From Xiphydria camelus (lineage: Eukaryota; Arthropoda; Insecta; Hymenoptera; Xiphydriidae), in NCBI GenBank assembly GCA_963678675.1, contig OY783197.1, positions 5,118,400 through 5,182,399 on the forward strand: a DNA stretch of 64,000 nucleotides, given 5' to 3'. The notes under the pieces were generated by a model, which saw nothing but the letters and a program-made list of their open reading frames with translations, was not told the DNA's origin and did no database searches. Position 1 is the first letter of the stretch, and each line of letters begins with the position of its first letter. Shown here one piece after another: positions 4,570 through 59,409 of this stretch. The position numbers and the translations under genes are program-made.

Positions 4570-5037
4570 TCATACGCATTTTTTTGGTATTTTGTTAGTA
4601 TAATTCGGGTATGGTAACAAATTAGTATATATCAGTATAATATTGTAGCTCGGGTTCCCTAATCTCCGTAAAGAGTGCGGGGAGCATTGGGTGAGCTTCA
4701 TCCGGGCGCGTCTCCAGGTGGCGGATAGGAGGGTGGCCAGGTGATTGAAGTGGACTCCGTTGGGGCCCATGGAGGACCCTGGTTAGTGGGTGCCATACCA
4801 TAGAGCACTCCGGGCGACGTAAAAATCGCCCTTGTAGGTGCATTTTGTACGGTCGTTCGTCGGCGTTCGTTCGTGGCGTTCGTAGGACCGCCTTGAATAA
4901 CATGGGCATTCGTCGAGCGGTCCTACGAACGGCAAAGGGACACAGAGCTATCGAGTGCTTTCACACGCACCGGAACCGTGTATACGGCAAATCTTTACCG
5001 CCCTCCCAGGATCTTCTCCCTCACACATACATTCACT
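4570..5037. other. Non-coding stretch with a local hairpin
   Basis: Contains an inverted pair around 4878-4935 (CGTAGGACCGC and GCGGTCCTACG). Nothing else is recognised. It is the target DNA on the left of the LINE insertion. Confidence 0.45.
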
Positions 5038-5306
5038 CATTCACCACTTGTGACTTGGTTAGGAGGCGTGGTGGTGAATGGTTGCGTGCGTGAGTGCTGC
5101 GAGTTGCGTATACCCACAAAAAGCGTAATAAGAGAGGTACGTGAAAGCAGGTAATCGATAGGAAGGCGAGGAATCGGTGACAGTTCTGAGATAATAGGAT
5201 CAGTCTGAGCGGAAAGTGGAATGAAGGAAAAGCGAAGAGAAGCGGTGGCGAATTTTGAGGTTAGAGGCGTCGGTCGGAAGGCGGTAAGAAGCGCACGTGC
5301 GAGGTA

Positions 5307-5487
5307 GGTAAAGGTGTGATTTCGCTGAAGCCGTCGGCGGTAGTGGCCGGTGGTAGCCGCCAGCGCGCTGGTGGTGGATACAGGCGTTCAGAGTAGCGTT
5401 GACGAAACCGGCCTTATTTAAAAAGCACTGAAGCAGCACGATACCGCTGGCGGCTACCGCCGACGGCTTCAGCGAAATCACACCTTA
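5307..5487 (+). repeat. Hairpin in the LINE 5' UTR
   Basis: GGTGTGATTTCGCTGAAGCC at the left pairs with its reverse complement at the right. The arms are about 32 nt with the GCCGTCGGCGGTAG block included, separated by about 115 nt that itself has partial pairing (GCCGGTGGTAGCCGCCAG). It may be an RNA structure or a small foldback insertion. Confidence 0.75.
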
Positions 5488-5624
5488 AGGCAGGAAGGGC
5501 TTAATCCGGCAGGGAGGTGGTAGGATATCGTGGCCGATAGGTAAGAAAATTGTAAAAGAGCAGAACAGTCATGAATCAGGTAGGAGAGAAAACTAATAGG
5601 AGAGGTAGGCCAACGAATGCTGAG

Positions 5625-6523
5625 AGGATAGAAAAATAAGGACAGTCTGGGAAGAAGCTGGAGGAGTTCCTGACAAAGGACAAAGGAGGGCTGCAAAAAA
5701 GCGGAAAAGAGGAAGAGATACAGCTAAAAATGCCGTCGACGAACCCGGCGACGGAGACTCTGCAGAACAACAAGGGAAGCGATCTAGGGACAGCGGCGAG
5801 GGGACAAGGAAAAGACGTCGAGGTAGTAGAGGCAATCAGATTGCTGTCGGAGCAGATAAATACTCTGAAGAGAAAGATGTCATGCAAGAAATAGGAGAAC
5901 CAGTGAGCCTGCTGAGAGACGAACTGAGGAGGTGGGAAGACAAGTGGGAAAAGAGAATCGAGAAGTTAGAAGAGAGAATCACGACACTGGAGGAGCGACT
6001 TGACGACAGGAGACACACAGAAGAGGAAAGCAGAGAATTGGACCAGAACATTGCGGAGATGGAGGAGAGAGTATTGGCAAGAGTCAATAGAAGCCAAGAA
6101 AAAAGTGGCCTCAATTCCGTAGAGGTCAACAGACTGAAGAAAGCCCTGAAGACGCAGGACAAAAAGGACAGGAAGAACAACGTAGTAATAAGGGGTCTGG
6201 CAAACTCGGGAGCAGTAAGGAAAGGAGAAATAGAGGATTTTCTCAGGAGAGAAGTAGGAGTTACGGTGAATGTGGAATGGACAACGAAGGCAGGAGGACA
6301 GAACGCGACGACGATAGTAGCTAAAATCGGCAGTTGGGAGGAAAAGCAGGACATTATGAGGAAGAAAGGCAGGCTAGGGGACCAAAGAGTGTACATAGAC
6401 AACGACCTTACCAGAGAAGCGGGAAGAAGAGTGAAGATAGGATACCAGAAGATATGCATAGAAGGAAGGTGGGTAGCCTGGGCAGAGTTGGAAAAGAATC
6501 GCCCGAATACGGTTTTTCACTAA
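5625..6523 (+). pseudogene. LINE ORF1 (coiled-coil nucleic-acid-binding protein)
   Basis: The frame is open from about 5625 with basic patches (KKRKRG, KRRRG). The first clear ATG is at 5882, so the native start is lost or lies upstream. Heptad-rich helices (LEERITTLEERLDD) form a coiled coil. They are followed by KDRKNNVVIRGL and RVYIDNDLT, the pattern of L1-type ORF1 RNA-binding domains. The role in the family is an RNP chaperone that binds element RNA. It ends 18 nt before the first clear ATG (6532) of the endonuclease segment. Confidence 0.75.
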
Positions 6524-11936: not shown

Positions 11937-12325
11937 AGATACAGCTACGGGGGAGCACCACTATGCGAGATGCAATCGACAAGATTAGCTTCGCGCTCAC
12001 GAGTACCCCAAAGACAGATCTCACTACGAAATTTAAAGCCCTCAGCAAGATAAGAGAGATAGAAGAGAATAGCGCGAGGCGATTAATAGCGCGATATTCT
12101 TCGTCTGAAGATCGGAAGCTTTGTCTGACGAATAGAGAGGGTGTAACGAGGGAGGGGGACCCTGGAGGTATATTATATCAAGAGACACGGTAGTGTCTCG
12201 CGGCATGTTCATTCAAGTAGTTCGTCAGAACGACGACAGCGCTGTCGCCGCGGGCACCCGTGTATCTTTACAGGAAAAATGTCTGCCCCCTTCACCCCTC
12301 AATTTTTACATCGATATCTACTTAC

Positions 12326-12890
12326 CGAAAGTTGGGCCTGACGAATACCACTTCCCGGACGTGGGACAGCTTCGCCGACGGTTGCATGATGCCGGGTGAA
12401 GCGCCGCTCAGAGACTCGGCGCCGATCATGACGACGACAGGTAGCGGACTGTCGTATCTGACGTGCGGCGTGAACACGTCGAGGTAGAGGCAATCCTCGA
12501 CGCCGTCGACACGGCCCGTGGCCTCGCGTTGCCAGCACATCTCGGACCCGTTGTGCGCCTTGAAAGTGCCCTTCCAACAGTGCTCTATTCTCCTGAGAGA
12601 TTCCGCTGGTAGCCATCGCCGATTACCCACGGGCGGTACGGCGTACGGTATGCCGCGGAAGGCGAAGGCTCCGTCTTCCAGGATACCTTGGACGGGACCG
12701 CACGAGGTGGCGGTCTCCATGAATTTGCCATCTTTCAGGGGCTGCGTCATAGACCTCCTGGGACCGGCGCAAGCGACGCATATGATGATGATGACGATCA
12801 ACAGGATGCAAAGTGTCGTGGCTGCAGAGAAAAATCTCACGTTAAAGATACGCGGTTCGCTTTGAGATGAGGCCCTCTCCATCCGTTCTT
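12326..12890 (-). CDS. Nrt: Neurotactin exon 4 (transmembrane segment and start of cholinesterase-like domain)
   Basis: Encodes a basic stretch (RIFNVRFF), one hydrophobic helix (TTLCILLIVIIIICVACA), then the beginning of a carboxylesterase fold: CGPVQGI, FAFRGIPYAVPPVGNRRW, EDCLYLDVFTP and LPVVVMIGAESL, ending VVFVRPNFR. In ordinary esterases the last strand before the oxyanion hole reads H-G-G. Here IGAES replaces it, as in Drosophila Nrt, consistent with an adhesion role rather than catalysis. The donor CG|GTAAGT is near-ideal and in phase 2. The 5' boundary is uncertain: 12890 keeps basic residues on the cytoplasmic side, as type II topology requires, while a stronger-looking acceptor (TTTTTCTCTGCAG) would start the exon at 12821 in the same phase. 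The rest of the ectodomain is not in the window. Confidence 0.82.
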
Positions 12891-13140
12891 CTCGCAAAAC
12901 GGCGCGTGTACACGGAGAGCAAATGTGATAACAACTACTAAACCCTTGCACACATTAATGGAATCAAAATATTTTTATTTCATACATTCCTAACTTACAT
13001 TAAATTAAATTTACCACTTATTGTCAGTATGATCATCTCCCACTTTAATTAATATTTCAGTTCTTTCTGGTGTAGTCCAACAATTTTTTTTCCTAATTAT
13101 CTTCTAATTTTTCAATAAGAAATTACATTTGAAAACAAGT

Positions 13141-17835: not shown

Positions 17836-18054
17836 CTTATTCTTCTTCCTGGGGAAGACCGAGACCAAGGGCAGTCTGATCGCGTCGAGAATTCCCTTGC
17901 GACTTTCCTTCTCTTTGGCTTCCTTCTCTTTGGAATCCTTCACCGGAGTTGTTGGCTTGTCCGTGGCCGCGGGAGGGTGTTCCCCTCCCTCCTTCACAGT
18001 GGCTGTCGGGCCTTCGGCGTCGGTATTCTCGGTCGTCGGCTTGCTCTCATCGTC
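17836..18054 (-). CDS. Nrt: Neurotactin exon 2 (cytoplasmic Lys-rich region)
   Basis: 73 codons, phase 0 at both ends. The acceptor is CGCTTTTTTCGCAG before GAC GAT GAG, and the donor is AATAAG followed by GTACCG. The product is hydrophilic and rich in Lys, Glu, Pro and Thr. It ends with GILDAIRLPLVSVFPRKK, matching GLLNAIKLPIANMIPKKK in Drosophila Nrt. Reading runs on openly past the donor for 18 codons, but only this donor makes a phase 0 join to exon 3, and the join reproduces the fly order (basic KKK motif, then ELG, then ASxETLDD). The region is cytoplasmic. The intronic sequence directly upstream is a transposon (18074-18671), so the branch point is probably transposon-derived. Confidence 0.85.
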
Positions 18055-23221: not shown

Positions 23222-24140
23222 GATCTATTATCATTCAAAAAAACATCAAGCATCGGGCGTGTGGTATGATGCAGATGACAGCATAATTGATGACAATAGT
23301 GAATTTAATATTGTGCAGGTTCAGTCTCCAATGCAAATGATATTACCAACAACTAACCTAAAAGACTGCACAGGTGGGAAGGTTATTTACACAGAACCCC
23401 TCCAGTTGACAAGGTGGATGAACTTTTTGAGACTGAAGAAACTGCGATAGTCATCTCGAACAAATTGAAAAATACGGTAAATAAATTTTTTAAAAATGGA
23501 GAAGTTATACGTGACAAGTTTTGTCTCATGGTCTATGTATATTTTTTTGCAGATGAACAATGAGAACAATGAGACTTTCGTGAACGCTAATAATCAAGAT
23601 GCTGCCATGGTTGAAGCTGGAACTAGCACTTCCGGAGAATCCATTCCTGTAACCCTCCTTTTCCTTAGAGATATACATTCATCATTACTTCAATATTTTT
23701 ATTAGTATTAGTGAAATTTTTTGACGCGATGTGTTTATTTTAGAGTGTTTCGATTTGTGAGAGCTGGATTCATTGTGGATTTGAATACATTTCCAACGAA
23801 TTTCTTTAATATCGAACTTTATAATATTACTCTGATGAGAACAATTATTACATTCGATGTTTATTGACTCGCCCGTAATGTACTCATATTGACTATGAAT
23901 AATTTCGCGCTCACATATACGTTTGAAAATTATACATTTGAGTATAATTATTGTAAGACGTTTTTAGAGTCTTATATTCCAATACATCTAACCGTCTTAG
24001 TATGAAACGTTTGAAGTGTCTTATTGGAAGACACTTACAGTGTCTAACGTATTAAGACGGTATTAAACGTCTTAAATGTGACCTCAAGTTTTAAGACATG
24101 TAGGTGTCTTAAAATAAAACGGTTGAGTTAGTAGTGTGGC

Positions 24141-24755
24141 ACCACACTAAATACAGTTTTGATCGCATTCTTCCTCATTCTATTTCTTTGTATAAACGCG
24201 TCAGCGTCGGAGACTCTCCGCGTGTATGGTTTTGTTTCAGCGCCTGGGCCCCGCAGGTATGAGCCCCATATGATGAAGGCACTCCCTCCCTTCCTCCTTT
24301 CATTTCGGACCACACATCGATGAGCATATGGCAGGCATACGCGTAAGTTTAAGTGGTACCCATAACTACGTTAACGCGTACGCGTACATACGAGACCCTT
24401 CGACGCCACATGGCTCGTGTGTGATTCTATCTTTGGACGCCCACGCTTCGAGTGTTGTCACGTGTCTTCCCGACCGCGAGGGACGCGCATTCCCCGGCGG
24501 ATCGTCGCTCGCTCTTATCGCGCGGCGTCCTCGAAAGCCAATAACGATTGCATCGGATACGTTCGATTAATATCTAGTGAATTTTTCCGTAAATTTACCC
24601 TGGCTGAGAGCTTCGCACAAACGTATTTAGCGTGAAACTTTACATCGAGAAAACAGTTTACTAATAATAAATAATTGTAATTTCAAATGCGGCGAAATAA
24701 ATATTTCATTAGGGCAAGAAAATATATGTTAACTCCGTGGTTACAATATGTCCGT
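24141..24755. other. Unannotated intronic sequence
   Basis: Moderately GC-rich around 24300-24560, but the open frames lack any recognisable family. Nothing supported. Confidence 0.4.
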
Positions 24756-24758
24756 ACA

Positions 24759-25214
24759 ATAGGGTCATCCCGTCAATTTTTTTTTCTCGGATTATGAAAG
24801 TTCAGGAAAAATTAAAATACCCCTATTTTTTCATTTTTCAAATGTATTCCTCCTAATACGCGAAAAAATGGAAATTAACAAGAAAGTTAAAAAGTGCGCC
24901 TTCATATGACGTCTTATATCCCACCCCTTTGATTGGTCAGAAAGCGACGAAAGCCGTGATTGGTTACGAATGTAAACAAACGCCATTACTATTCGACGCT
25001 TGCCAAAAACGCATGCGCGCAGTGCGTTCGACGTTGGGATATATCACGTCACATCCGGCGCGAAATTTAATTGAAGATTTTCATATGTTACGCTCTCCTA
25101 CTTGCAACAATCAACAAAATCGATTTTTTTTATGAGACAGAATCTTATTACGTTTCAATTTCTGAATGCAACTATTATTTTTATAAAATTGTGATGGGCG
25201 GGATGACACTATTC
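24759..25214. mobile_element. MITE with AATAGGGTCATCCCG ends
   Basis: Termini AATAGGGTCATCCCGTC and the inverted GGGCGGGATGACACTATT. Subterminal AT-rich arms pair loosely. Non-coding. Confidence 0.6.
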
Positions 25215-25467
25215 CGCAGTTGTCACAAATGGGTCAAACGGACTCATAGTACATGCCAATAAGTCATTTGAGATAAAAAAAATTAGGGTAGGGGTGAATT
25301 TTTGATATGTTGTTTCTGGTGGTCAAAAAGGTAAAATCCTAAGTTCCCGTATCCCTAACTGTGTCCCTTCACCGCAATCTTGAATAAAATTTTGGAATCA
25401 ATTTATCTCGTTTCCTGTTCTGCGGAGAGAAAAAAGTGTACAATAAAAATTGTAAAGCTCAAAAGTG

Positions 25468-25920
25468 TCAACATATTTTGTCTGAGGCCGAACTCTCTGT
25501 AATTAGTTCCGAAGAACTAATATCGACACATCCTATGGGGAAATATGTACGACTGGTGGTCTTACGGAGCCAGTTGTGCAGAGCACATGTTGCTTTAATA
25601 ATACATTCTATTGTTTCGACTTTCACTGGTATTGGTTTTTCGAATATCCGACATCTTTCTACCAAAATACCAAAAGCATTTTCGGAAATTCTATGGCCCG
25701 TGAGAAAGCCTATAATTAGAAATACGTTGTTGCAAAGAAAGAGGGGCACTTCTAGGATATGGTTCCAGAAGATTTGACCGCAATGGAAAAGCATCATCGC
25801 CCACGAAAACGCTGTTATGACGCACTTTTTAAAATTGTCACCTTTTGTAGCCTGAATATTCAATGTTCTTGAATGATGTGAACGAATTTTGCCTTCAATT
25901 CTATGTTCAGTTGTATACAT
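25468..25920 (-). pseudogene. HARBI1/PIF-Harbinger transposase fragment
   Basis: The C-terminal part of a DDE_Tnp_4 transposase is recognisable from HRISENAFGILVERCRIF, KPIPVKVETIE and IIKATCALHNWLR, all typical of insect HARBI1-like proteins. The upstream half is out of register and lacks clear catalytic Asp blocks. It is a possible source of activity for the TTA/TAA-inserted elements in the window, although this copy is dead. Confidence 0.75.
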
Positions 25921-26458
25921 TCAACGACATTGATCAATGAAGTTGACTAGTGAGAACCCAGCTTTATTAATCCCTGGGAGGGGTCACCGATCGAAACAAA
26001 GATAGCGCAGGCCCCAGTGTCAAAACTGAGCAATGCCTGCAAAGGTGGAATCGGGGGAGGGAAGTCATCGAAACTGCCCAGTCGCTGCGTTTGCGCTTCA
26101 TTTTCTCCGCGTGCCTTGGTTTATCACAGGTGACACGCCGGAAACGAGGGTAGGTGAGGGAAGGAAAAGTACAATTTTCCGGTCTACCGAGTTCACCACC
26201 GGGACACGGAGGGACGATGCGCGGCGCTCGTTTTCCGCGTGGGGGATTATTATATGGGCTAGGCACGCGTTTGTAAACGATCAGTGCGGGCATATGCGGC
26301 GGTATATAATGCTCGATAAAGTTACGTGCTGGCGAGTTCCGCTAAGTCGCGGAAGGGCAGAGGGTGAAACGCGTTACGCGCTTTATTTCCGGTCTAAAGC
26401 TTCGTTTCTCACCGTTTGGCAAGCGATCGATATAAATGCATGATGTACATTCGCCGTA

Positions 26459-26872
26459 CTCCCAGTGTCACGGATTCTGTCGCTGATGACTTTTTAAAAT
26501 GTCATATTTAAATATACTAGCCAATGAATAATTAATTCTTATGCTCTCATTAGCTTCGGCGACTTCGGCCTTGGTTAATGAATGCACTAGGCCATTTGCA
26601 CGCGCAAGCGCGCGCCTAAAACGTACTTCATAACGACATTTACATTTACTTTAACACTAATTTTATCAAATTGAATTTCCCCGCTTTAACTATTGAATAC
26701 TATATATTTATATCGATTATCAACTAACCAATGGTGATAGGTGACCACGACTTTCGATTATATCGTGCTGGATTTTATTAAATAGGATTAGAATTGATTA
26801 TTATTCATTGGTTAGTACGTTTAAAATGGCATTTCAAAAAGTTATCGGCGACTGAATCCGTGACGCCGGAAG
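26459..26872. mobile_element. Foldback MITE, CACCCAGCGTCACGG family copy 2
   Basis: Termini CTCCCAGTGTCACGGATTCT and TCCGTGACGCCGGAAG, flanked by TA. Arms share AAAATGTCAT/ATGGCATTT and TAGCCAATGAATAAT. The interior (26640-26800) recurs at 60225-60380, where another element has split it. Confidence 0.75.
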
Positions 26873-27013
26873 TAGGTTTGTTCTTCTGGTCTACACTAAG
26901 TACACTTAGTTTCCACAGTATAATATGTATAAAATATGTCCGGCTTAGAGCTACGCGCAAACGTATTTGACGCGAACTTTAAAGAGTTTCTTGATTTATA
27001 GCTATCAAAAAGT

Positions 27014-27577
27014 CTAAGGCCGGTATTCATAGTCGATACTTATATCCTTACTGGAGTCTGACTTGACGAAGCATGACTTATTCATTTAAGTCTTACTTAT
27101 TATGCCATGTATTCATAGTCGTCAAATAAGTCGAACTCCATGAAGTCTTGCTTATTCGCTTCAAGTTTGACTTCATCAAGACCGTGCTCAAGTCCTTGCT
27201 TATTGAATGATCGGGTATATTCGAAAAATTTTCGATAAATCGACCAATCAGTGCGCTGGATTTCTAGTTACTCTATTCTGAGTAGGTATATTTGATGATC
27301 TAACGTACACATATGCGGGTAATTCGTGACTCGAGCAGACCGAGTAACAGTGGTCGATTCAAGCAGTCGATGCACAGAGAAAAAGAATTATTCGGATCTA
27401 TTGAAAATTACTTGCGGAATCGCAAGTAACTATTTATTTATATCAATGAAATTTTTTAATACATCAATGAAATATCTCTTTCTTACAATCATGTGGGATA
27501 GTATGTGATTGCAAGAAAGAAATATTTAAATTAACCCATACAGCACAGAACGTTGCAGAAACGTTGCTCTAATGTTG
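27014..27577. repeat. Repeat remnant with GGCCGGTATTCATAGTC end
   Basis: Starts GGCCGGTATTCATAGTCG, followed by many AAGTC/GACTT words up to about 27220. An inverted end of the same type (GCGACTATGAATACGGGCC) is at 36258-36276. The rest shows only a weak inverted pair near 27462-27520 (TTTCTTACAATCA and TGATTGCAAGAAA). Confidence 0.5.
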
Positions 27578-27578
27578 C

Positions 27579-27658
27579 AATAGGTCTGTTCCATCAGCAC
27601 TCCCGGACGTCTCGCGACTGTCCCGTGACTGTCCGGGAGTGCTGATGGAATAGACCTA
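27579..27658. repeat. 80-bp hairpin
   Basis: AATAGGTCTGTTCCATCAGC, CACTCCCGGAC on the left pairs with its complement on the right around a short GC-rich loop. Minimal foldback MITE. Confidence 0.8.
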
Positions 27659-27880
27659 ATATCTCAGGTTGTTTTGCAATGTTTCAGCTATTGATACACA
27701 TTGATTTTTCAACATTGATTAGGAATGTTGTGACAACGTCTGAAACACATTGAATAAATATTCACAGATAAGTACGCCTTAAATGACCATGCACTACTAA
27801 CTCAGCCGTCTTATTTTAAGACACCTACATGTTTTAAAACTTGAGGTCACTTTTAAGACGTTTAAATTGTCTTCCAATAA

Positions 27881-36916: not shown

Positions 36917-37108
36917 TATTTAAATTTCCCCCACATTTGACTTTGGTAGTGCTTGGAACGGTGCTGTAGTTAGAGTTGGCTTCAGAAGAGTGCGCTGCGT
37001 TCTTATGAGCCGTGTTTCCGAAACCTGTATGATTATTTTCGTCACTCAGTGCGTAAAACTCGGTTTCACGGTCGTCCTCAACCCCGTCAACCTCGTATTT
37101 GACACTTA

Positions 37109-37234
37109 GGGCCGGTTTTACCAACAGGTATACACGCGGTATAGCGCTATACTGAGTATAACCATAGGGCTTATTGCTGGTTATTCTCAGGATAGCGCTA
37201 TACCGCGTTTATACCGTGTTGGTAAAACCGGCCC
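37109..37234. mobile_element. GGGCCGGTTTTACC MITE, copy 2
   Basis: 127-bp-class hairpin, TTA on both sides, arms GGGCCGGTTTTACCAACA and complement, core AGCGCTATAC. PIF/Harbinger-type signature. Confidence 0.92.
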
Positions 37235-37732
37235 TTAGTGACAAAAAATAGAATTCGTTATAAGGGCGTTTCGCGTCGTTTTAACTCGTGTGGTTGCCGC
37301 ACTCGCTTCGTTCGTGCGGAAAACTTCACACTCATTGAAAACGGTGCTTCACGCCCTTATAACGAAAATATCTATTCTCATCACTTCTACACATTATTTA
37401 CCATTATTTACAAATTCAGTTAATTTCGAGGTTAGACGCTTCGATCTCCCGAATTGACAGTTCCCGGGAAATCGGACGTTTTACACTTTTCGCTCTCGAA
37501 GCACGGCTCGTAAGAACGCAGCGCACTCTTCTGAAGCTAACTCTAACTACAGCACCGTTCCAAGCACTACCAAAGTCAAATGTCAGGGAAATTCAAATAC
37601 TTGCATTATCCACGGGACATACTGTATATGATAACTATAGATATGCTATATCGTGAGAAATCTAGTATACCTACTTATTTTTAATCCAAGAAGAAAAAAC
37701 CTCATTTGACTTTACTTACATGCTGAGTACGT

Positions 37733-45835: not shown

Positions 45836-47633
45836 GTATGAATACTTTTTTCCCCGCCTCATTTGACACTTGCCAAAATAAATGTCTTATATTTTGTAGA
45901 ATACATTTTCTTTTCAATAAAATATATATGATTTGAAAGCTGAAACTACAGCTATATTTTGATGCCAATAGATATTCATTTATTTCAACTATTTGCAAGT
46001 GGATCGTAGTTGAACGGTACCTCACCATGGTGTATGAATACTTTTTTCCGCCACTGTAAACATAATTGTACTGTTATATAATTGAGTGGGAAATAACAAG
46101 TTACCTGTAACTGACATGTAATATCTATGCAATATTATCTGTTACTTTTGGTTACATTACTACAATGTAATAGCAATATAGCAGTATTTAGTGGAATATT
46201 CTTTATTCAAGAAATATTTTTTTGATACAACCAATTATTTCTCTCAGTGTATTCGCCGAGAAAAAGAAACTTGAATCATTATTATCTTATTATCTATCAG
46301 CTTTTGCCGCATGTTTGTATAATATTTTTTAGAAGGAGAATTACATTTTTATCTACAACAAAGTCTTATACCGATGCAAGCCAAAAGTTCATAAATAATG
46401 AGATAATAGTGATCGAAGTTTCTTTCCTGGCGAATAAGTTTAGATTCGTATAAGGGGCCATTCACATATTACGTCACACAATTTTTGGTCTTTTTAGACA
46501 CTCCCCTCTCCCTTTGTCAGAGTTTGTCACAAATTTAAACCCTCCCACCTTCTTTCTGTGACGTTACAAGAGTATGTAGGTACACGGAGAAAAAAATCCT
46601 AGAAAAATTGCTGTGCTCCGCACAATAAATTAGGTACAAAACGCTCTTTTAGTTAATTTTCTTGTAGTATCCAGGAAAAATTAATATATAACACTTAATT
46701 TTTGTCAAAACCTAACGGATTTTTTAATAGTGAGCTCATAATAATTTGTAGCGCAGCACAGTAAAATTTGAAGGACTCAATTGTTTTATTGTACTGGAAA
46801 GGAAAAATGAACGGTTGATTAGAATAAAATAGCGTAGAGATTGAGAAACTTTATCCTGCTGGCACTAAACTTTTACCGTGCTGCCCGTGAATTACTCACC
46901 GACAGAACGGTATACTCCAGGTAAGGTACAACCCCGAGAGAGGCGGCTATACATACCCTGCCTCACTCTGACTCTAACGGGAAACCCACTTACCCCTTAC
47001 CTTCCGACTTACAATCAGGGGAATTTTGGACTTATTGTTATGCCGGGTTTACACGCTTGGCACTTGCCACAAACTCCAAGCCTTCACAAACGCACAAACG
47101 TGTAAACGCTTCGCAAGCGCTTACCGTTAACTTCCTTTGATTTGTGCCAAAAACCGACACTCGGTCGAATCGGCGACAAGTGCTAGCAAGCCTACACAAG
47201 CAAAGCCAAACGCGCTATTCACACGTTTGAATTTGTGATGGCTTGTCGAGGTTTGGCGAGCGTATAAACCCGACGTTAGGTACGCGACGTGCGGAATAAA
47301 GCTACCGACCGGAGTGTCCGGTCTTCACTTGTAATCGAGCAACCACCGCGGACACTCCGCCTTGAGCTGAACTACTCCTGGCTAAAATAAACTTCACACG
47401 GAATCTGCAGCACGCCCTAGCCTTCCGTCACCACCACCCGATTCCTGTCATATCACTACATCCAGCAATCCTCGTTTCCACGCGCCGGAACAATTGGTTA
47501 GTGTTGGGGGGAAAATGGTATAAATTCAAAATTGGCTAAAATGTGTTGAGTAGATTAATCACTTCTGAAAACGGGTATCTACGGTATAGGGACAAGTGAT
47601 ATAAGTCTAGTCCAAATAACAAAATAAGACTTA

Positions 47634-47760
47634 GGGCCGGTTTTACAAACACAGTATAAACACGGTATAGCGCTATACTGAGAATAACCAGCACGAAGCG
47701 TTATGGTTATTCTCAGTATAGCGCTATACCGCATTTATACTGTATTTGTAAAACCGGCCC
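47634..47760. mobile_element. GGGCCGGTTTTACC MITE, copy 3
   Basis: 127-bp hairpin, TTA on both sides. Differs from the other copies at the arm tips (ACAAACACAGTATAAACACG), with compensating changes on both arms. Confidence 0.92.
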
Positions 47761-47771
47761 TTAACCCTTAA

Positions 47772-50400: not shown

Positions 50401-50523
50401 CGCAATTTCCTAATAGTTATTTTCGTTATAAGGGTGTGAAGCGCCGTTTTTAACGAGTGTGAAGTTACACGAGTTACAAACGACGCGAACGCCCGAATAA
50501 CGAATTCTATTTGTTGTCACTCA

Positions 50524-50649
50524 GGGCCGGTTTTACCAACACGGTATAAACGCGGTATAACGTTATACTGAGAATAACCAGCAATAAGCCTTATGGTTAT
50601 TCTCAGTATAGCGCTATACCGCGTTTATACCGTGTTGGTAAAACCGGCC
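50524..50649. mobile_element. GGGCCGGTTTTACC MITE, copy 4
   Basis: Hairpin of the same family, TTA at the right (left degenerate, TCA). Adjacent sequence 50410-50520 resembles, inverted, 37235-37370 (GAATTCGTTATAAGGGCG), so the two MITEs landed in related repeats. Confidence 0.9.
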
Positions 50650-50713
50650 TTAAGTGTTAAATACGAGGTTGACAGAGTTCGGGGCAGGGTGTTGTTCGGG
50701 GCGGGATATCGGC

Positions 50714-50730: not shown

Positions 50731-51112
50731 CAATTACAAACAAGTATTTTTTAAAGTGAAAAGAAATAAATAAACAAACAAAGAACTGTAACATATTCAC
50801 TGCCGCTCTAATTTAGATACATTTTGCCCCATGCCAACTTCAAGTTAATAATTCGAACAATAACAAAATATATAAAAATCGTCAAAATTCCGAACCACGT
50901 GCACGTTTACGTCAAAGAACCTTTACTCAAGTGCCAGCATACACATACACATGTAACTGCAGTGCCCAGTTCCAGTTCAAGCCTGAATGGAATAGAACGC
51001 TTAAGGTTACCGCACACTTGCGCGTCGCGTTGCGCCAAAATATCGACTGGATAAAATACATACAAAAATAAATGTACTACCGCTCACTTGAGCGGCGCGC
51101 CGCGTCGCGTTA

Positions 51113-52569
51113 CAGCCCGTTCACACGATACGGTTTTTTCGTTCACACGATGCGGTTTTTCACCGTTTCGGTAATTTTACCGAACAGCCCGTTCAGACTA
51201 TACGGTTTTTCACCGTTTCGGTAAAATTCTACCGAATCGGTCAGCCCCCTGACACTATACCTATCTCGGCTACGGCTCTGGCAAGTGTTTCGCACACGTC
51301 GAGTGGACGTGTCAACCAATCGCCCGGGCGTCGAAACAGTGCCGCTCGAGCGAATGCTAAGGATACTCAAAAACAATTTTTATTACATTACTTTGCAATG
51401 TTATTAGATCGTTTATAACGTTTTATAAATTTATTTTCAGATAGAGCTTTTCGTGTAATGCGAAAAACATGGCGCCATCGCATACGCAACGATATATCGT
51501 CGCTGGCACTTTTCGCAAGTGCAGAGAACGACGATATATCGTCGTCCGGTACTAAAAGGGTTAAAATCATTGTTTATTGTCGCGCCATCACCCGGCCATG
51601 CACGAGCCCTATCAGTACGAAAACTATCCTGTCTGAACACTTCGATGCATAAACATTGCCACTAGCAACCGATTTGATTATTTTCCCGAATCGGGCCATT
51701 CGGTTTTCAGTGACAAGACCGAATGTCAGTCGCGACCGAATCGGTGAAATTGCCGTATGCGTTTCGAAGACGTACCGCGTGAACGCGCCCATTTAAATGT
51801 ATGCGCCACTGCAGCACACGGTAAAAAAACGGATTCGGTAAATTCACCGAATCGGTTTTTTACCGTGTGCTGCAGTGGCGCATACATTTAAATGGGCGCG
51901 TTCACACGGTACGTCTTCGAAACGCATACGGCAATTTCACCGATTCGGTCGCGACTGACATTCGGTCTTGTCACTGAAAACCGAATGGCCCGATTCGGGA
52001 AAATAATCAAATCGGTTGCTAGTGGCAATGTTTATGCATCGAAGTGTTCAGACAGGATAGTTTTCGTACTGATAGGGCTCATGCATGGCCGGGTGATGGC
52101 GCGACAATAAACAATGATTTTAACCCTTTTAGTACCGGACGACGATATATCGTCGTTCTCTGCACTTGCGAAAAGTGCCAGCGACGATATATCGTTGCGT
52201 ATGCGATGGCGCCATGTTCTTCGCATTACGAAAAGCTCTATCTGAAAATAAAATTATAAAACGTTATAAATGATCTAATAACATTGCAAAGTAATGTAAT
52301 AAAAATTGTTTTTGAGTATCCTTTGCATTCGCTCGAGCGGCACTGTTTCGACGCCCGGGCGATTGGTTGACACGTCCACTCGACGTGTGCGAAACACTTG
52401 CCAGAGCCGTAGCCGAGATAGGTATAGTGTCAGGGGGCTGACCGATTCGGTAGAATTTTACCGAAACGGTGAAAAACCGTATAGTCTGAACGGGCTGTTC
52501 GGTAAAATTACCGAAACGGTGAAAAACCGCATCGTGTGAACGAAAAAACCGTATCGTGTGAACGGGCTG
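51113..52569. mobile_element. Giant near-perfect palindrome (1,457 bp) with TTA duplication
   Basis: Termini CAGCCCGTTCACACGATACG and complement, TTA on both sides. The arms, about 720 bp each, show only a handful of differences (for example TGTAATGCGAAAAAC versus TAATGCGAAGAAC), and the centre is near 51841. Each arm has three subterminal repeats built on CGTTCACACGATACGG and CACCGTTTCGGTAA, and an internal CGATATATCG palindrome pair. Identical open frames on both strands are a result of the symmetry. PIF/Harbinger-type target; no transposase. Confidence 0.95.
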
Positions 52570-52574
52570 TTAGG

Positions 52575-52720
52575 GACGGGTTCCTACCGCTCACTTGCCC
52601 AGTGCGGCGCGTCGCGTCAAAATACCGACTGGAAAAATACGTGTACCTATACAAATAAATGTACTACCGCTCACTAGAGCGGCGCGGCGCGGCGCGTCGC
52701 GGATGGGGATTCTTCCCTTC
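52575..52720. repeat. Direct repeat flanking the giant palindrome
   Basis: TACCGCTCACTTG and AAATAAATGTACTACCGCTC resemble 51008-51108 left of the palindrome. An inverted version of the CGCACACTTGCGCGTCGCG end is at 55625-55660. Probably one older element split by the palindrome. Confidence 0.55.
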
Positions 52721-52956
52721 AAATCCTTGGCGTCAAACGACGCGTCGCGACGGGACGGTCATAAAGACTAGTCTTTGTCCGTCACATAATAGACGAAATT
52801 CGGAATATCGGTTCTTACCACTCACTATCATCGCGATCGAAATACCTCGTGGTTAATATCGCGACCAGACGGGCGAATTCTCCAAGACTGGCGCGTTTTT
52901 TATTGATAGGATGGATCTATATTCTCTTCTCTACGCAACAAAATTATTATAATATA

Positions 52957-53441
52957 ACTTATTTTACTCTAAAAATTGTCAAACTTCGGAAGCCCGTAGC
53001 ACAGCGAAAAATCATCGTATCCCTATCTTTTTTTAAAAATTAAAGCTTAAAATCTCAGCTTTACTATCCCAAAGTTTATTTTTCGATTTAAAGCACCGAG
53101 AGATTAAGAGACTAAGAGACTAAGAGATTAAAAGATTAAGAGAGATTAAAAATTTTTTTTTAATTAAAGATAAAGAGTTGAACTTTCATTTTCTGTGATC
53201 AGAATTTGAAATAAAAAATTTTTGTAACCGTGTCAATGCGCAAACTGTGCAAATTTTTAAGTTTCAAAAGATGACCTGGATTTTCAGGGTCTCTTAATCT
53301 CTCGGTGCTTTAAATCGAAAAATAAACTTTGGGATAGTAAAGCTGAGATTTTAAGCTTTAATTTTTAAAAAAATAGGGATACGATGATGTTTCGCTGTGC
53401 TACGGGCTTCCGAAATTTGACAATTTTTAGAGTAAAATAAG
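52957..53441. mobile_element. Foldback MITE, arms about 155 bp
   Basis: Arms share TTTACTCTAAAAATTGTCAA, GGAAGCCCGTAGCACAGCGA and CTATCCCAAAGTTTATTTTT with complements. The loop contains GAGACTAA repeats (53095-53150). Confidence 0.88.
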
Positions 53442-53634
53442 TTGTTGCGATAATTTTGTTGTGTAGTGTATTTCTTTCTGACATCAATGCTACCATAAAA
53501 GCAATTTCCTCATTAGAACTACTGCTGCCGTCGTATATCTTGTTGCACTGCTAGATACCGTCTGATTGTAATATCTATATATATAAAAATGAATGTTTGT
53601 CTGTCTGTCTGTCTGTCTGTATGTCTCTTATGAC

Positions 53635-54510
53635 TTCCTAAACCGTTCATCCGATTGCGATGAAATTTTGGGAAATGGTTAGACGCATGCCCGCGATGGT
53701 TTCTGAGTTAGTAAATCTTATACAGGGTGTTCAAAAAGTCCCGGTACGGCCGATTATCTCAGCGGGAAAACATTTTAGAGAAAAATGTTTAATACAAAAC
53801 TTTAAGGATTTTCCCTTGGCTATCCAGTGGTCGTATTGGATATGACCTTGACCGTGACCTTTAAGGTAATATCAAATGCCTTCCTAAACCGTTCATCCGA
53901 TTGCGATGAAACTTTGGGGAATGGTTGGACTCATGCCCGCGAAGGTTTCTGAGTTAGTAAATCTTATATAGGGTGTTCAAAAAGTACCGGTACTGATGAT
54001 TACTATGCCTTCCTAAACCGTTCATCCGATTGCGATGAAACTTTGAGGAATGGTTGGACGCATGCCCGCGAAGGTTTCTGAGTTAGTAAATCGTATACAG
54101 GGTGTTCAAAAAGTAGCGGTACGGATGATTATTATGCCTTCCTAAACCGTTCATCCGATTGCGATGAAACTTTGGGGAATGGTTGGTCACATGCCCGCGA
54201 AGGTTTCTGAGTTAGTAAATCTTATATAGGGTGTTCAAAAAGTACCGGTACTGATGATTATTATGCCTTCCTAAACCGTTCATCCGATTGCGATGAAACT
54301 TTGAGGAATGGTTGTACGCATGCCCGCGAAGGTTTCTGAGTTAGTAAATCGTATACAGGGTGTTCAAAAAGTAGCGGTACGGATGATTATTATGCCTTCC
54401 TAAACCGTTCATCCGATTGCGATGAAACTTTGGAGAATGGTTGGACGCATGCCCGCGAAGGTTTCTGAGTTAGTAAATCTTATACAGGGGGTTTAAAAAG
54501 TCCAGGCATA
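53635..54510 (+). repeat. 129-bp minisatellite inside the Helitron
   Basis: The motif TTCCTAAACCGTTCATCCGA starts at 53635, 53881, 54010, 54139, 54268 and 54397. The last five are exactly 129 bp apart. Successive units alternate between two versions (TACCGGTACTGATGA and TAGCGGTACGGATGA), giving a 258-bp higher-order period. Confidence 0.95.
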
Positions 54511-54989
54511 GCTGATTATCTCAGCGGGAAATCATTTTAGAGAAAAACGTTTAATGTAAAACTTTTCGGATTTTTCCCTGGCTACCCAATGGTCATATTG
54601 TATTTGACATTGACGATGACCTTCTAGGTAAAATTGATTTTTTAAAATCCGAACCTCTATTTTATATACCGAAAATGAAAAGAGCGGGAAATTTCACGTT
54701 CAAATATGTCCTTGACCATTATTTCCATGTGACCTTTATGGTCAGCGGAGGTCAAATTGAGGTCAAGTACAGTTCGGCTTCGTACCATGAAAGCTATGGG
54801 CCCTATACAAATTCTTTTTGATAGTAGGATTTAGGATTTTTTAGTGGCTGTACAATGGTAATATTGTATTTGACCTTGACCATGACCTCCATTTGGAATC
54901 TCTTACATCTGACATAATATTCCAAATCAGTTACACGAAAAATTCCTTAGTGCCAACCAAATTTAATCGAGGTAACAATCATCACTGGC

Positions 54990-57973: not shown

Positions 57974-58311
57974 ACATGTACTATAATTAATTGTTAAAAA
58001 TGGAAAAAAAAGTTTCAAATATTAAACTCAATGTACAATACACCAGTACTTTGTGCGACATAATGCTATTAGCCTTTTTTGCCTCCATTTTAATGCTCTT
58101 TCATTCGACCTACACAGAAGAGCCAATTTCAAAAATTTGTAGTTTTAGAATAATACTAGGTACTATTTTGAACTTTCTGTTCACCCTGTAGATTATACTT
58201 CAAATTTAAGATGTGTAAAATTAGTTTGCCTTTAAGCACAAACCTTCACCTAAAATATTTTTTTTGCGAAATGAAAAACCAAAAATTACCAATGTGTTTT
58301 GCAGACTTTTT

Positions 58312-58770
58312 GGATCCGCCATATCGTTTTTCGAAATTTTGACTTTGAATTCGTAATCAGCGACCCCAGAAACCGCCGAGTACTCAATTTCACCCAGATT
58401 CGATCAATTTTTGAGGAACCTTTTCGCCATATTGGATCCGCCATATTGTTTTTCGACATTTTGACTTTGGATTCGTAATCAGCGACACCAAAAACCCCCG
58501 AGTACTCAATTTCACCCAGATTCGATCAATTTTTGAGGAACATTTCCGCCATATTGGATCTACCATATTGTTTTTCGAAATTTTGACTTTGGATTCGTAA
58601 TCAGCGACACCAAAACCCCCCGAGTACTCAATTTCACCCAGATTCGATCAATTTTTGAGGAACCTTTCGGCCATATTGGATCCGCCATATTGTTTTTAGA
58701 AATTTTGACTTCGGATTCATAATCAGCGACCCCAAAAACCCCCGACTACTCAATTTCATCTTGATTATAC
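58312..58770. repeat. 122-bp tandem repeat, four units
   Basis: Unit starts (GGATC...CCATAT) at 58312, 58434, 58556 and 58678, spacing 122. Each holds ATTTTGACTTTGGATTCGTA, ATCAGCGAC and GAGTACTCAATTTCACCCAG. Related words occur in the 60.4-61.3 kb palindrome. Confidence 0.92.
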
Positions 58771-59187: not shown

Positions 59188-59409
59188 CCTGCAAGGCTCC
59201 TTGCTCTTGGTGCGGCAGAAGCCGGGCATCTTGATGCCGCCGATCGGGATCTTCTTCCTCGGCTTCTGCTCCTCCGCCTCAAGGTCCGAACCCGGCGCCG
59301 CGCCAGTGTGTTTAGTGTTCTCCGCGTTGAGCATCTTCTCCCTCTCCTCCTCGGCGATCTCCTTCTTGTCCATGCTCTTGTCGTGCCGCTCCAGGTCCAT
59401 CCGACTCAT
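59188..59409 (-). CDS. Nrt: Neurotactin exon 1 (N-terminal cytoplasmic region)
   Basis: First coding exon, 74 codons. The ATG has A at -3, and an in-frame TAA lies two codons upstream, so the start is well supported. The N-terminus is charged and has no signal peptide, as expected for a type II membrane protein. The diagnostic segment is KKIPIGGIKMPGF (residues 52-64), which closely matches KKIPIGGLKLPGF in the cytoplasmic tail of Drosophila Neurotactin as I recall it. The exon ends after an AGG codon at GTTAGC, in phase 0, which agrees with the phase 0 start of exon 2. Known for the family: Nrt is a cell-surface adhesion protein of developing neurons and epithelia, a partner of Amalgam, with a catalytically inactive cholinesterase-like ectodomain. 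The ortholog assignment rests on the combined exons. About 41 kb of intron separates this exon from the next. Confidence 0.85.

Follow-up and report, generated by a model that had tools for sequence, protein, structure and literature searches.

The palindrome and its host gene

The DNA analysed here is a 64,000-nucleotide window of the Xiphydria camelus genome (contig OY783197.1, positions 5,118,400 to 5,182,399), which holds two coding exons of a neurotactin (Nrt) gene and, in the intron between them, a palindromic element of 1,457 bp (51113..52569). This element is, with high probability, a rearranged, non-autonomous miniature inverted-repeat transposable element (MITE) of PIF/Harbinger affiliation, a head-to-head chimera of two element types. 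The gene is read from the minus strand. Its first coding exon (59188..59409, 222 bp, 74 codons) and its second (17836..18054, 219 bp, 73 codons), both with inferred splice sites, join in frame to give 106 identities out of 148 to a 'neurotactin-like protein [Lasius niger]' in an alignment that crosses the join; the named protein matches of these exons came from Lasius niger and Vollenhovia emeryi. Because the two exons join and align in this way, the palindrome can be placed in the 41-kb first coding intron (18055-59187, minus strand), some 6.6 kb past the first coding exon, in agreement with the initial annotation, which had located it in intron 1 of Nrt. A downstream open reading frame (ORF; 12322-12954) contains a stretch that by eye resembles a transmembrane segment and part of a carboxylesterase domain (6.3e-24), features that we take to be those expected of neurotactin.

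The extent first proposed for the palindrome, with arms of about 720 bp and few differences between them, proved exact. Outside the centre, the left arm (51113..51842, plus strand) and the right arm (51834..52569, minus strand) are separated by six substitutions and one 2-bp indel, and they are 98.6% identical over 727 aligned columns when the centre is counted. The longest exact inverted repeat measured 246 bp within 3 kb, compared with 13–17 bp when the window was simulated 20 times under a first-order Markov model. The arms are indeed bounded by a TTA duplication (51110..51112 and 52570..52572, both on the plus strand) and carry the subterminal repeats that had been described: each end has direct repeats whose offsets are 22 and 72 bp. 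The terminal inverted repeats are 28 bp long on the left (51113..51140, plus strand) and on the right (52542..52569, minus strand), the right one belonging here to the family's left end, of which the element has two copies. At the centre, the two sources meet in a 9-bp microhomology, TTCGGTAAA (51834..51842), and the junction falls in a near-palindromic motif.

A 9-bp motif, CCGWWTCGG / CCGAWWCGG, occurs 11 times in the palindrome (at 51163, 51213, 51232, 51686, 51736, 51847, 51940, 51990, 52442, 52461 and 52511; span 51163..52519) and is absent from the remaining 62,543 bases of the window. The CpG observed/expected ratio of the palindrome, 1.80, is greater than that of all 1,193 sliding windows of the same size (50-base steps) that do not overlap the element. 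No Rfam family at its gathering score and no tRNA was detected in the window, and no protein homologues were found for the 101-codon open frame of the arm.

The palindrome is embedded in a dispersed, GC-rich host repeat (51008-51110 and 52585-52697) that is present at dozens more places in the genome. As a query for the uninterrupted target site, the two flanks were joined with a single TTA (190 bases) and searched against the genome (357 Mb in 38 contigs), with 40 of 204 candidates scored. This retrieved 67 matches to dispersed repeats, eight of them spanning all 190 bases. Four flank paralogues were fetched and aligned, and all four are continuous across the site, with 20–22 of 23–24 nearby columns identical and TCA in place of TTA; their continuity points to a clean insertion in which no flanking DNA was lost. 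The tandem units that lie next to the element in the window itself matched the sequence across the insertion site only in part.

The MITE family and a parent-like element

Searching the genome with the arm, where 40 of 679 candidates were scored, yielded 41 full-length matches, two of which are the palindrome's own arms. The other 39, which are the best-scoring copies and not a random sample, are 98–99% identical to the left arm, and every one of them is non-palindromic. Relatives with matched duplications measure 939–943 bp (19 copies), 1,085–1,086 bp (three) or 768 bp (two). With L159 excluded from the duplication table, exact 3-bp duplications were present in 24 of 38 parsed relatives (12 TTA, 11 TAA and one ATA, hence 23 TWA), and C or G lies next to the duplicated triplet on 44 of the 48 sides of these copies. 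In five copies (L134, L135, L143, L153 and L155) one flank is TAA and the other TTA; this disagreement, at the middle base only, might stem from a target mismatch at insertion or from recombination between copies. Exact matches between a copy's own two ends extend to 28 bp in L125, L121 and L140, and to only 13 bp in L141 and 15 bp in L123. L120, one of 14 copies without clean ends, turned out to span 3,820 bp between two TTA triplets and to enclose a different transposase ORF (L197, 304-4123); the element nested in this copy has a 606-codon ORF that matches DDE_1 (2.7e-18), with HTH_psq and PHD below cut-off.

Preceded by TWA, the 21-bp tip TWACAGCCCGTTCACACGATACGG was found at 203 exact places in the genome, the palindrome locus included, against none for the reversed control. 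End patterns of 18 to 21 bases gave 0, 2 and 0 matches in viral contigs, and a 15-base end pattern matched at least 116 stretches in genome contigs; the 80 titles among the matches listed all belonged to prokaryotes, a number of matches that can arise by chance when 15 bases are sought in 257 billion. Among 48 family loci, three were the palindrome locus and L162 was the same place as L126, and in none of the 44 other distinct loci did the arm interior occur on both strands. A 141-bp query across the centre (51772-51912) matched end to end only at the palindrome locus among the 40 scored of 196 candidates, the rest covering about half of it. As far as the search shows, the palindrome appears to be single-copy.

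A parent-like element was located through tips spaced wider apart, four stretches being followed from about the first half of the 203 tip places. This element, L199, is 5,963 bp long and has the same ends as the MITE, TTA on both sides, a 27-bp exact terminal repeat and an ORF that matches DDE_Tnp_4 (2.5e-29). The 940-bp MITE maps onto it in three segments (1-335 to 1-328, 89.6% identity; 160-769 to 5037-5649, 98.4%; 773-940 to 5796-5963, 98.8%), which identifies the ordinary member of about 940 bp as an internal-deletion product of such a 6-kb Harbinger element. An ORF neighbours the transposase in both L199 and L200; its resemblance to a MADF protein is weak, with a match to PF10545 below cut-off in L200 (0.0076; 17 bits against 22) and no match in L199.

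The 3-bp TWA target-site duplication, together with terminal inverted repeats common to a DDE-transposase element (L199), places the family among PIF/Harbinger (Tourist-like) MITEs. The Harbinger affiliation suspected in the initial annotation therefore held, and the further copies in the assembly that it had envisaged, including one with a transposase between the same termini, were found as the 39 full-length relatives and L199. With Tourist-like MITEs such as mPing, the family has in common a TTA/TAA duplication of 3 bp, non-autonomy and a transposase-bearing relative (PMC2836001). Unlike the palindrome, the ordinary members of the present family are not full palindromes. Nor, reportedly, is mPing. 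In L199 the 9-bp motif occurs at 12 places, four in the first 121 bp and eight in the last 512 bp, with none between. A Myb-like protein of Harbinger3_DR is reported to bind a 9-bp subterminal motif (PMC9710019), and for this reason we regard the motifs of the palindrome and of L199 as candidate binding sites of a Myb/MADF-like protein or of the transposase.

Two other sources were considered and set aside. A DDE_Tnp_4 relic at 25–26 kb of the window is enclosed in a 3.8-kb element with different ends (24063-27865; inverted ends of 74 bp at 94.6% and putative TTAA duplications), and its weak DDE_Tnp_4 match (25468-25920) is below the family cut-off; the sequence CAGCCCGTTCA has no other place in the window. 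The arm was also examined as an ancient complete MITE with two ends of its own; in 62 of 1,000 simulations the outer and inner ends were at least as similar as in the arm, which is not significant, and the family comparison replaced this reading.

Two sources and the origin of the palindrome

Comparison with the family shows that the two arms differ at sites that separate its haplotypes. At element positions 341-342 and 491, 25 of the 39 copies are --/T and ten are GT/C, and two recombinant classes have two copies each. The left arm has the GT/C haplotype (GT at 51453-51454, C at 51603) and the right arm the --/T haplotype (no GT; T at 52081). The inner ends also match different structural types. 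The left arm covers positions 1-728 and at its inner end is of the family's 768-bp type, tracking L140 up to position 728 with the inner 36 nt identical. The right arm, inverted, covers positions 1-736 of a member of the 940-bp type, tracking L125 up to position 736 with the inner 44 nt identical; the inner 79 bp of the right arm are identical to many family copies. The L140-like and L125-like sequences overlap in the 9-bp microhomology at the centre.

The arms are also about as different as two members of the family. They diverge by 0.85%, against a mean pairwise difference of 0.70% among the 39 best-scoring copies, and outside the centre the left arm has three private changes, at 51358, 51465 and 51778, and the right arm two, at 52271 and 52253, where ordinary copies have a mean of 1.8 (range 0–8). 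Their near-identity had been read as a sign of recent insertion or of ongoing arm-to-arm gene conversion. Youth is plausible, all copies examined being very similar; conversion between the arms is rejected because they keep different family haplotypes, and a difference of the size found between two family members gives no sign of it.

From these comparisons, the right end at this locus appears to have been replaced by an inverted copy of the left 736 bp of another member. The chimera most likely arose by break repair that copied another element's left end; this repair route is our inference, as is formation in place, which we infer from the uniqueness of the palindrome. A resident element would have been broken at its right end, for example after attempted excision, and the 28-bp terminal repeat of the broken end, identical to the family's left end, would have served as primer for synthesis templated by another copy's left end. 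The synthesis would have proceeded inward for about 736 bp, and the product could then have been closed onto the resident element through the 9-bp microhomology.

Several observations weigh against this account. The combination of GT/C with a 768-type inner end is found in none of the 39 copies, and that inner end occurs in just L140 and L141, each of which is --/T; therefore the left arm either has an exact donor that escaped detection or is a recombinant in its own right. The 768-type inner-end sequence is also present in ordinary 940-bp copies like L121, in their second tandem unit. In 14 of the 38 parsed relatives, the ends are mismatched or unparsed. The private changes show that some time has elapsed, and the appearance of a chimeric origin could also have been produced if another copy later converted one of the arms.

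It is possible, though rather unlikely, that the same chimeric palindrome arose elsewhere and reached this locus whole by transposition, from a source copy that has been lost or is absent from the assembly. Such a transposition would account for the intact ends, the clean duplication and the undisturbed target, but no second copy with the same centre was present among the scored matches, and at the 44 other family loci the arm interior was never found in both orientations. This route departs from the favoured account only as regards formation in place, and the high probability that we attach to the palindrome's identity and chimeric origin covers both. Self-foldback of a single element, from a nascent strand or a broken end, with identical arms that diverged later, would fit the near-palindromic motif at the junction and the roughly 99% identity of the arms. 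We consider it very improbable, since the arms differ at the sites separating two haplotypes held by ten and 25 of the 39 copies and their inner ends match different structural types, so that a later conversion of the left arm would have had to affect both the haplotype sites and the inner end.

The loss of the facing ends and the intervening DNA from two neighbouring tail-to-tail copies is also compatible with the two haplotypes and the 9-bp microhomology junction, and a chance TTA/TTA match would have about even odds, given 12 TTA and 11 TAA duplications in the family. However, the left and right flanks are contiguous, with one TCA, in dispersed copies of the flank repeat, which strongly disfavours and largely refutes this route, leaving it an extremely small chance. 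An assembly or library artefact (a missed adapter, an amplification chimera or a mis-join) deserves mention as palindromes are generally known to be a failure mode of long-read processing, but it appears just as improbable, because the outer flanks are non-palindromic, the duplication is clean, four uninterrupted copies of the flank repeat are contiguous and the arms are of different haplotype; a 9-bp join is, moreover, too short for an assembler overlap.

The favoured account, a chimera formed by copying between family members, has a structural parallel in the Galileo TIR1-F1-F1-TIR2 copies of Drosophila mojavensis, for which the authors invoke breaks, recombination and conversion between copies (PMC3573991). 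As in the recombinant-TIR (2RT; TIR, terminal inverted repeat) copies described there, internal sequence beside one end recurs inverted before the other end, and chimeric copies occur. In contrast to Galileo, the palindrome belongs to PIF/Harbinger, has a matching 3-bp TTA and lacks a spacer where its arms meet. Among the titles and abstract openings listed in searches of an open-access collection, none reported a palindromic Harbinger MITE in ants.

Other repeats lie close by. A second element with long inverted repeats adjoins the palindrome (52931-53466, 536 bp, arms of about 180 bp, 94%), without a clear duplication having been seen. A further, distinct family of near-palindromic repeats, about 140 bp in length, has window copies that include 50518-50656, 47625-47764 and 37099-37240, and the same intron contains tandem arrays at 53628-54634 (repeat offset about 129 bp) and 58310-58766 (about 122 bp).

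Hairpin RNA potential

The expectation that the palindrome, if transcribed, could fold into a very long double-stranded RNA (dsRNA) was supported by structure prediction. The predicted fold of the minus strand has 721 base pairs, in runs of 245, 52, 17, 25, 372, 1 and 9, and an energy of -1421.8 kcal/mol, that is, -0.98 kcal/mol per nucleotide compared with -0.37 to -0.41 in four ordinary copies. Neurotactin pre-mRNA would thus be predicted to form a dsRNA of about 720 bp at the palindrome, on which Dicer-2 and ADAR might hypothetically act, as first proposed. The 39 family copies, those without a parsed end being taken as 940 bp, have a median of 80% of their 21-mers (range 55–90%) present in the palindrome, and none of the palindrome's 21-mers is found elsewhere in the window. 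Apart from the private changes and the unique centre, most of the palindrome's 21-mers recur in other family copies. In L199, 649 of 5,943 21-mer positions are common to the palindrome, and they lie outside the three main ORFs of L199.

These properties raise the question of whether the palindrome is a functional hairpin-RNA locus whose small interfering RNAs (siRNAs) target the MITE family or its 6-kb parent, much as has been proposed for maize Mu killer. The far greater predicted stability per nucleotide than that of ordinary copies, the position of the long inverted repeat inside a transcription unit (transcription of the intron being deduced from the exons) and the extent of 21-mer sharing with the family and with parts of the 6-kb relative outside its main ORFs would all suit such a locus. 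Against it, the arms contain no transposase sequence and, in comparison with the 6-kb relative, do not match target coding sequence, and excised introns are, as a rule, quickly degraded. We consider such a function unlikely and, unless small-RNA data indicate otherwise, regard the dsRNA as an incidental side product that serves no evolved function.

The closest functional analogue is Mu killer itself. In Mu killer, as in the palindrome, both ends come from the same parent end, the halves join as an inverted duplication and a flanking gene is present; the hairpin has been proposed as the siRNA source, a non-hairpin model was also offered and the centre could not be sequenced (PMC3440606). The arms of Mu killer hold transposase sequence and it silences MuDR, whereas the arms of the palindrome are noncoding and any silencing by it would be hypothetical. 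The hairpin RNA loci of Drosophila, to which the predicted hairpin is comparable in arising from an inverted repeat, are defined by their siRNAs and targets (PMC10317233, PMC10292708). A more specific proposal is that a new, gene-embedded hairpin makes a spreading Harbinger MITE family its own siRNA target by being transcribed through neurotactin, as an animal counterpart of Mu killer acting on family copies and on untranslated parts of the transcripts of the 6-kb element; we regard this as speculative and rate it slightly lower still than hairpin function in general.

The locus documents with unusual clarity how a transposon turns into a giant palindrome: both source types are legible, as are the place where they join, an element like the parent and the target in its uninterrupted state. 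It supports copying between family members over self-foldback. If transcribed, the palindrome would offer a natural test, at a single locus, of whether an intronic hairpin derived from a transposable element can trigger siRNA against its own family in an insect.
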